A stretch of 64,000 bases of DNA from Aequorivita soesokkakensis (GTDB lineage: Bacteria > Bacteroidota > Bacteroidia > Flavobacteriales > Flavobacteriaceae), in the NCBI RefSeq assembly GCF_001641085.1, contig NZ_LXIE01000001.1, positions 124,001 through 188,000 on the forward strand, written 5' to 3'. This document shows positions 46,448-50,488 of this stretch, one piece after another. The notes under the pieces are model-generated. The model saw nothing but the letters and a program-made list of their open reading frames with translations, did not search any database and had not been told where the DNA came from. Each line of letters starts with the position of its first letter. Positions within the stretch are counted from its first letter, which is position 1. The translations under genes and the position numbers were made by a program.

Positions 46448-46996
46448 ATGAGAAATTCAATGCCCTCCGTAAATGCCGGCAGTATGGCCGACATCGCCTT
46501 TTTACTTTTAATTTTCTTTTTGGTAACCTCCATGATTCCCAATGACAAAGGGATAGCCCGCGACCTTCCACAGCCCTGCCCTCCCGGTGCGGAATGCAAT
46601 ATTCCTATTAAAAAGAACAATCTTTTTGCTATAAGCTTAAATGAAAAAGGTGAAATATTCGCCAATAATGAAATAACAAATATTGAAGACTTGAAAGAAA
46701 AGTTGAAGGATTTTATTGATAATGGTGGCGACGAATCCTGCAAATACTGCAAAGGCGAAAAATTTCCTGCATTTTCAGACAACCCCCAGAAAGCTTCAAT
46801 TTCCGTGTCAATCCATCGCGAAACACCTTATCAAAATTTTATTTCCGTTCAAGACGAAATTGCAAAAGCTTATTTTGAGCTTCGTGAAAAATACGTCATC
46901 GAAGTTTTGAAAACCACTTCTGAAAACATTACTAAAGAGGAATTGAAAAAAATGCAAGAAGCCTATCCATTTAGGGTTATTGAAACGGATTTTTAA
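46448..46996 (+). CDS. ExbD/TolR-type biopolymer transporter
   Basis: A 182-residue inner-membrane protein of the ExbD family. The single helix is SMADIAFLLLIFFLVTSMI (12-30), with the essential Asp15 of the proton channel; the rest is periplasmic. In ExbB-ExbD-TonB systems it uses proton motive force to energise outer-membrane transport. No exbB or tonB is nearby, so it is a lone copy here. The periplasmic part carries four cysteines (PCPPGAEC and SCKYC), an uncommon feature that could allow disulfides or metal binding. Confidence 0.88.
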   Translation: MRNSMPSVNAGSMADIAFLLLIFFLVTSMIPNDKGIARDLPQPCPPGAECNIPIKKNNLFAISLNEKGEIFANNEITNIEDLKEKLKDFIDNGGDESCKYCKGEKFPAFSDNPQKASISVSIHRETPYQNFISVQDEIAKAYFELREKYVIEVLKTTSENITKEELKKMQEAYPFRVIETDF

Positions 46997-49849: not shown

Positions 49850-49993
49850 TACCGAAAACACCTACCCTGCAATCATTTGGCAAAGCGTTGACGGTTAATG
49901 GTATGTTAAACAATAACTCTTAATGATATTGAAGATTTATTTCAGCCTAAAAGTTAATATTACGTTAAATCATTACTTTGTATTACATAGTAC

Positions 49994-50021
49994 TGTAACA
50001 AATCTGAAACTGTTGCGTCTT
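49994..50021 (+). promoter_or_regulatory. ECF-type promoter of the micro-ORF cluster
   Basis: TGTAAC (49994-49999), a 16-nt spacer, then CGTCTT (50016-50021). Both elements and the spacing are textbook for ECF sigma factors. The first micro-ORF ATG lies 29 nt downstream. No primary-sigma -7 box of comparable quality lies between it and the ATG. Confidence 0.6.
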
Positions 50022-50050: not shown

Positions 50051-50137
50051 ATGAGAACTTTAGACAGCAATCTTTTAACAGAAAAAATGAAAACCTCAAG
50101 AGCATATACTTGGAATATGAAAAGAAGGTTTCGCTAA
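50051..50137 (+). CDS. Micro-ORF A: 28-residue basic peptide
   Basis: First of three tandem short ORFs. The 28-residue product starts MRTLDSN, has a variable centre (LLTEKMKTS) and ends AYTWNMKRRFR; estimated net charge +6. It matches micro-ORF B in length, start and end, and the DNA differences in MRTLDSN are all third-base synonymous changes (ACT/ACA, TTA/TTG, AGC/AGT, AAT/AAC). That pattern shows selection on the peptide. An A-rich leader (ATTAAAATACA) precedes the ATG. No signal peptide; function unknown. Confidence 0.78.
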   Translation: MRTLDSNLLTEKMKTSRAYTWNMKRRFR

Positions 50138-50171
50138 ACAATTAATCAGAAACAATAAAAACTTAAAAATC

Positions 50172-50258
50172 ATGAGAACATTGGACAGTAACGAAAAACA
50201 ACACAGACCCATTAATTCCAAAGCTTATAATTGGAATTTAAAAAGACGTTTTAAGTAA
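50172..50258 (+). CDS. Micro-ORF B: 28-residue paralogue of A
   Basis: Second of the tandem. Exactly 28 codons like A, product MRTLDSN, then a different centre (EKQHRPINS) and AYNWNLKRRFK. In the C-terminal block A (GCA/GCT) and R (AGG/CGT) are encoded differently but preserved, and M/L and R/K changes are conservative. It starts 34 nt after the stop of A behind an A-rich leader. The conserved Trp at residue 21 and KRRF at 24-27 are the most likely functional part. Function unknown. Confidence 0.78.
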   Translation: MRTLDSNEKQHRPINSKAYNWNLKRRFK

Positions 50259-50291
50259 CGGCACCAACAGAACACCCAAAAACAATTAACT

Positions 50292-50426
50292 ATGAAAACC
50301 TTGAGAAACATTCAAAAAAGAATTAAATGCGGATCGCAAAAGCAACATACGTTGAATTACCTTAACGGAAACCAACACTTGTTTGAAGATCCTACAATCA
50401 GAAAAACATGCAGATACGCTTATTGA
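50292..50426 (+). CDS. Micro-ORF C: 44-residue basic peptide
   Basis: Third of the cluster, 33 nt after B. The product begins MKTLRNIQKRIKCG, so it shares the M-[RK]-T-L start, but it is longer (44 residues), has two cysteines (C13 and C40) and ends TCRYAY. Estimated net charge about +7. It is more diverged and its coding status rests on synteny, the shared start and the regular leader spacing (33-34 nt). It ends shortly before a strong terminator. Confidence 0.65.
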   Translation: MKTLRNIQKRIKCGSQKQHTLNYLNGNQHLFEDPTIRKTCRYAY

Positions 50427-50451
50427 AACATATAAAAAGAGAAAACAATTG

Positions 50452-50488
50452 AAGCTGGATTGAAGAAATTTAATTCAGCTTTTTTTTT
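50452..50488 (+). terminator. Terminator of the micro-ORF cluster
   Basis: AAGCTG (50452-50457) pairs with CAGCTT (50476-50481), with an inner ATT/AAT extension, then a run of eight T. It overlaps the last codons of the convergent DUF1456 gene. Confidence 0.82.

Follow-up and report, generated by a model that had tools for sequence, protein, structure and literature searches.

A conserved operon of tandem basic micropeptides behind an ECF-sigma-like promoter in Flavobacteriaceae

Introduction

Gene clusters of the aureocin A70 and enterocin L50 type encode leaderless bacteriocins, hydrophobic or amphipathic peptides accompanied by transport or immunity genes. Other short and basic chains, such as RMF, bTHX and the arginine-rich region of lambda N, are cytosolic, and the lambda N region also uses Arg together with Trp. 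Genes this short fall below the length kept by the usual gene finders. Here, we describe three consecutive short open reading frames (ORFs), A, B and C, in a window of 64,000 nucleotides from Aequorivita soesokkakensis (the whole stretch of DNA analyzed; contig NZ_LXIE01000001.1, positions 124,001 to 188,000), together with their relatives in other Flavobacteriaceae.

The locus resembles the leaderless bacteriocins in its tandem, short, leaderless and basic peptides. However, its peptides are very hydrophilic, with a grand average of hydropathy (GRAVY) of −1.51 at the median and −0.89 at the maximum over 160 distinct 28-residue sequences, and they stand alone: the window contains neither a hydrophobic or amphipathic membrane-active peptide sequence at the locus nor a transport or immunity gene beside the operon. 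With RMF, bTHX and lambda N, they share the short, basic and probably cytosolic character, but neither the A/B profile nor C has a sequence match among PDB chains. On the regulatory side, an extracytoplasmic function (ECF)-type CGT box has been described in Flavobacterium psychrophilum, where ECF-like SM6 promoters are induced under low nutrients (PMC9723704). The promoter found here is likewise ECF-like; the SM6 targets, in contrast, are type IX secretion system and envelope genes, and the accessible portion of that paper mentions no such peptides, palindrome or GTTAA repeat (PMC9723704).

Results

Three short reading frames evolve as genes

To judge from sequence comparison, A, B and C are coding ORFs under purifying selection, as a first-pass annotation of the window had proposed. 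Homologous ORFs with a preserved frame occur across the genus and the family, pooled ratios of nonsynonymous to synonymous substitution (dN/dS) of 0.10–0.21 lie well away from ~1 (Table 1), and length changes are mostly confined to the spacers, the ORFs themselves being near-fixed in length. These ratios exclude the B gene of genome G002 (32 codons), that of G027 and four 43-codon C genes. The cassette is found in 26 of the 28 same-genus genomes searched, its own included. A profile search with A and B recovered relatives in 25 of the 27 others, the weakest single members being B of G009 (E = 0.012) and A of G002 (E = 0.0017), and gave no match in G015 and G024; C matched in the same 25 genomes, most weakly in G008 and G009 (E ~1e-4). 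All three ORFs start with ATG in 25 of 26 cassettes (B of G027 starts with TTG), and across 25 genomes the spacers measure 19–71 nt between A and B and 19–41 nt between B and C. Adenines at −3, −6 and −12 are reported to raise initiation in Flavobacterium johnsoniae (PMC6847099). Upstream of A, B and C, respectively, an adenine occupies −3 in 25, 25 and 23 of the 25 cassettes, and −12 is an adenine in 24 of 25 for each.

The transcript itself might instead be the active product, a regulatory RNA with incidental ORFs. That the transcript is short and has a promoter and terminator of its own would suit such a role, but codon-level selection, near-fixed ORF lengths beside variable spacers, the start-site adenines and the lack of any Rfam match at the cassette at gathering score make it highly improbable.

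Re-reading of the window reproduced the annotated coordinates, the lengths of 28, 28 and 44 codons and the gaps of 34 and 33 nt. It also reproduced the common start MRTLDSN and end AYxWNxKRRF[RK] of A and B, which are identical at 16 of 28 positions, the four synonymous third-base differences within the first seven codons, and the differing codons beyond the start for Ala and one Arg, to which the codon table adds Ser; differences in the shared ends are mostly synonymous. The likeness exceeds chance because B, used as a query, recovers A within its own genome (E = 3.7e-5) and the A/B profile matches those 25 other genomes. A and B nonetheless form separate ortholog groups. Each of the 50 peptides compared finds its closest counterpart from a different genome within its own group, and identity over the middle residues 8–15 is 69% among A, 57% among B and 5% between A and B. 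The tandem family of three proposed earlier stands for A and B but not for C, which is no third copy but a separate basic peptide of ~43–45 amino acids that in many genera comes after an A/B array.

A promoter better conserved than the peptides

The upstream block of the 26 aligned cassettes is better conserved than the peptides and recurs in other genera. It consists of a GTTAA repeat, a near-palindrome TACTTTG-N5-CATAGTACT and a GTAAC-N16-CGTC pair, which we take to be ECF-sigma-like. Among 129 non-redundant sites, selected in part by GTAAC itself, CGTC lies exactly 16 bp past GTAAC in 122, counting overlapping CGTCGTC (109 if only the first CGTC is scored); this is the fixed −35/−10 spacing expected of an ECF-sigma regulon, and part of the conservation reflects how the sites were selected. 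An exact GTTAA-N5/6-GTTAA is present in 86 of the 129, and TACTTTG or close forms, together with CATAGTACT, lie between the repeat and the GTAAC/CGTC pair in these sites.

In the A. soesokkakensis genome, the cassette upstream region holds the single exact copy of TACTTTG-N5-CATAGTACT, and a looser search of the same genome with up to three mismatches gave 29 matches, not above 35 in controls. The palindrome followed by GTAACA is found in 189 of 397 family genomes, a count that includes a second kind of site with CTTTAA in place of GTAAC, and the reversed pattern does not occur among the matches listed. The next-best site in the own genome (L081, contig C50, near 190003) is of this second kind: its palindrome TACTTTGTTTTTCAAAGTACT, with one mismatch, stands ahead of an operon that encodes a membrane protein and an HTH_34 winged-helix protein, and sites of this kind recur in many family genomes. 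Phosphate control of the PhoB/PhoP type, considered on the strength of the GTTAA repeat, was rejected, with 14 matches in the genome against 10 in controls and no common theme among the downstream genes.

Judged across genomes, promoter and peptides travel together. An ORF with the motif K-x3-W-x3-R-[RNHQ]-[FYHC] lies within 750 nt of 57 of 65 GTAAC-type sites, drawn from a non-random set of loci (30 chosen by search, with some repeats, and others picked by hand, partly seeking sites without peptides); the motif appears in 1 of 10 CTTTAA-type sites and in none of 1021 control ORFs of that size at the same loci. Three of the eight remaining sites (two at L176, one at L309) precede secreted-looking proteins, a near variant can be made out by eye at three more (L174, L303 and L299), and L295 and L305 complete the set. 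Read from the peptide side, the promoter is present not at every locus but at 68 of 79 named loci (the best 80 of 149 matching stretches), 64 by a first script and L217, L218, L247 and L259 by a looser rule.

At L203, L216, L238, L241, L246, L252 and L253, the GTTAA repeat is kept and a TAGATTTG box of the type common in flavobacteria takes the place of the ECF pair and the palindrome, so the repeat outlives the pair. The secreted-looking proteins behind the peptide-type promoter at L176 and L309 carry repeated ...LPxxFxPxKG segments, and the one such protein tested has no match in Pfam. Because the promoter also precedes these proteins, the regulon is not one of peptides alone.

So tight a tie between one promoter type and the peptides, along with their predicted basic helix, would also suit peptides that bind RNA polymerase, an ECF sigma factor or an anti-sigma factor and exert feedback on the regulon to which they belong. 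We consider this unlikely, as the arrays in the loci viewed by eye have no recurrent sigma or anti-sigma neighbor.

Peptide classes and their spread

The peptide classes share the core K-x3-W-x3-R-[RN]-[FY], with W and R positions nearly fixed in the family. Searches that start from the promoter reach divergent members a sequence search would miss: besides the 28-residue class, the promoter precedes forms of 36–37 residues (MKATSSRTATESKTGQYFSSFGNSKRAQWAQYRNFNR) and of 22–24 residues (MRTTIFNNSKRVRWSAHRNYAIKS), some beyond the reach of an A/B search. The minimal versions occur at L290 and L291 in arrays of three to five behind the same promoter, L290 having an extra single copy elsewhere.

With a profile of 20 such peptides (E ≤ 0.01), the 28-residue family was found in 134 of 397 Flavobacteriaceae genomes, spread over 91 of 237 genera; in nine of these genomes the match is weak (E 0.001–0.01). 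The 36–37-residue class is found in 41 of 299 family genomes and 36 of 236 genera, mostly genera other than those of the 28-residue class; four of the 41 genomes have E values greater than 0.001, and stops occur in some. Among the best 80 of 149 matching stretches, relatives were found in genera such as Ulvibacter, Winogradskyella, Bizionia, Altibacter, Aquimarina and Formosa. The 28-residue peptides often stand two to four in a row, and the maximum per genome is 10–12 matches (ten in G032; G302).

In the wider samples, both of which include an uncounted number of family members, we saw no credible match outside Flavobacteriaceae by sequence search. All nine matching genomes of 346 at order level belong to the family, as do three of the eight matching genomes of 376 at class level (E < 1e-12); the other five class-level matches (E 0.003–0.009) are partial or lie within other frames and were judged chance. 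Conservation of the peptide genes spans a major family of marine bacteria.

The earlier description of the peptides as previously unrecognized is upheld. Pfam and NCBIfam returned no profile match, PHROGs returned none for A and B and nothing better than E = 0.095 and 0.36 for C, and among open-licence papers we found no description of them, although subscription papers could hold one. A mobile or phage origin was set aside, B having no match in phages or plasmids. The promoter, the terminator and the wider superfamily are additions to the peptide system that the annotation had correctly outlined.

A proposed model of cytosolic microproteins

We propose that the cassette is a stand-alone operon of translated cytosolic microproteins, turned on by an ECF-type sigma factor under some stress or starvation, probably with the help of two further proteins, an activator that binds the GTTAA repeat and a regulator of the winged-helix type that binds the near-palindrome. 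Each A/B-type peptide would combine a variable front half with a basic C-terminal helix along one side of which Lys (or Arg), Trp and Arg line up. This helix would bind an acidic macromolecular machine, the likeliest candidates being RNA, the ribosome and RNA polymerase. Dosage would rise with the number of tandem copies, and the separate conservation of A, B and C suggests a multi-peptide set.

We favor a cytosolic location and binding to an acidic machine because the 28-residue sequences are very hydrophilic, carry a median charge of +6 and show by eye no signal or membrane segment, and because the modeled structures are helical. AlphaFold predicts a 31-residue relative as all-helical, with helix 17–30 spanning the motif (mean predicted local distance difference test score, pLDDT, 73.5; predicted template modeling score, pTM, 0.32), and C as likewise helical (pLDDT 71.8, pTM 0.37). 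The four-residue spacing of the conserved K, W and R places them on one face of such a helix.

The first-pass annotation had suggested binding to membranes, RNA or another acidic partner; strong hydrophilicity makes the membrane part and membrane lysis unlikely, and RNA or an acidic partner is kept as the favored target. Cationic peptides acting on the membrane or envelope, by resemblance to leaderless bacteriocins or by envelope binding, would agree with tandem leaderless basic peptides that contain Trp, and ECF factors often serve the envelope. Set against this are the hydropathy values, the peptide-only operon of the window and a genus-wide retention that resembles a housekeeping trait, and we regard such a role as quite unlikely. 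Nor are the peptides of the hydrophobic transmembrane kind that marks type I toxins. Multi-copy arrays might point to dosage-type peptides with no specific partner, a nitrogen or amino-acid store, a charge shield or a chaperone-like agent, but distinct A and B middles and near-fixed W and R positions are needless for storage, which renders this very unlikely.

Several observations weigh against the proposed model of stress-induced cytosolic microproteins. The cassette is missing from two of the 28 same-genus genomes, and adenine at −6 is frequent for B only (21 of 25 genomes, against 5 for A and 4 for C). Looser ECF-like sites in the own genome barely exceed the control (7 vs 4), seven named loci, mostly in Winogradskyella, have neither the ECF pair nor the palindrome, and in both G131 (at two sites) and G270 the same promoter stands ahead of secreted-looking proteins. 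The strict core fits only 158 of 209 distinct short peptides, the window A itself having Arg for Lys. Finally, little weight can be put on helix models of peptides this short, and both models are of modest confidence.

Taken in parts, the operon and its coding capacity appear nearly certain from the sequence comparisons, and we infer the sigma class, the regulators, the inducing condition, expression, the helix and the partner. The statement as a whole, stress-induced cytosolic microproteins with a basic, Trp-bearing helix on an acidic partner, we judge somewhat probable; RNA, the ribosome or polymerase as the target is a tentative assignment. Equally speculative is a stress regulon spanning Flavobacteriaceae whose main output would be sets of tandem micropeptides in the cytosol, with Lys, Trp and Arg forming a stripe along the helix. 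These might act together to remodel the ribosome, RNA polymerase or RNA while their bodies diversify (~22–45 residues) around a fixed promoter and core. If the peptides act on any of these machines, they would constitute a new stress-response layer in Bacteroidota.

Layout and neighborhood of the cassette

Because an intrinsic terminator follows C (Table 1), the transcript would hold A, B and C only. A VTT-domain gene lies upstream and DUF1456 and Usp genes lie downstream, all on the opposite strand. An attenuator leader peptide would share its transcript with the gene it controls; here, the terminator and an opposite-strand gene come next.

Table 1 Features of the micropeptide cassette, in window coordinates
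Feature	Position	Strand	Remarks
GTTAA-N6-GTTAA direct repeat, 11-bp period	49953..49968	+	Read in the window and in the 26-genome upstream alignment; candidate activator site
Near-palindrome TACTTTGTATTACATAGTACT	49974..49994	+	Candidate operator of a winged-helix regulator
ECF-sigma-like promoter (GTAAC, 16-bp spacer, CGTCT)	49995..50020	+	Conserved in the upstream alignment
Peptide A, 28 aa, MRTLDSNLLTEKMKTSRAYTWNMKRRFR	50051..50137	+	Orthologs of 28 codons in 26/26 genomes; dN/dS 0.19 (26 genomes)
Peptide B, 28 aa, MRTLDSNEKQHRPINSKAYNWNLKRRFK	50172..50258	+	28 codons in 24/25 scored genomes; dN/dS 0.21 (24 genomes)
Peptide C, 44 aa, distinct basic peptide	50292..50426	+	44 codons in 22/26 and 43 codons in 4/26; dN/dS 0.10 (22 genomes)
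Intrinsic terminator, 14-pair stem then T run	50451..50482	+	Fold z-score −5.05; 0/200 shuffles equally stable

At L137, three peptide copies are followed by a 113-residue secreted-looking protein without a Pfam match. In 12 loci found by script, exbD begins ~66–115 nt past C (one gap value is an artefact). By eye, a TATGGTAYTGTTTTTG-like element recurs ahead of exbD, and a hairpin with a T run separates it from C in L131, L155 and L208, which are identical, and in L260. Membership of exbD in the operon was rejected on account of this promoter-like element of its own, the intervening hairpin and its distance in the window, where exbD (46448–46996) stands alone, 3 kb from the cassette, rather than directly after a peptide array as elsewhere.
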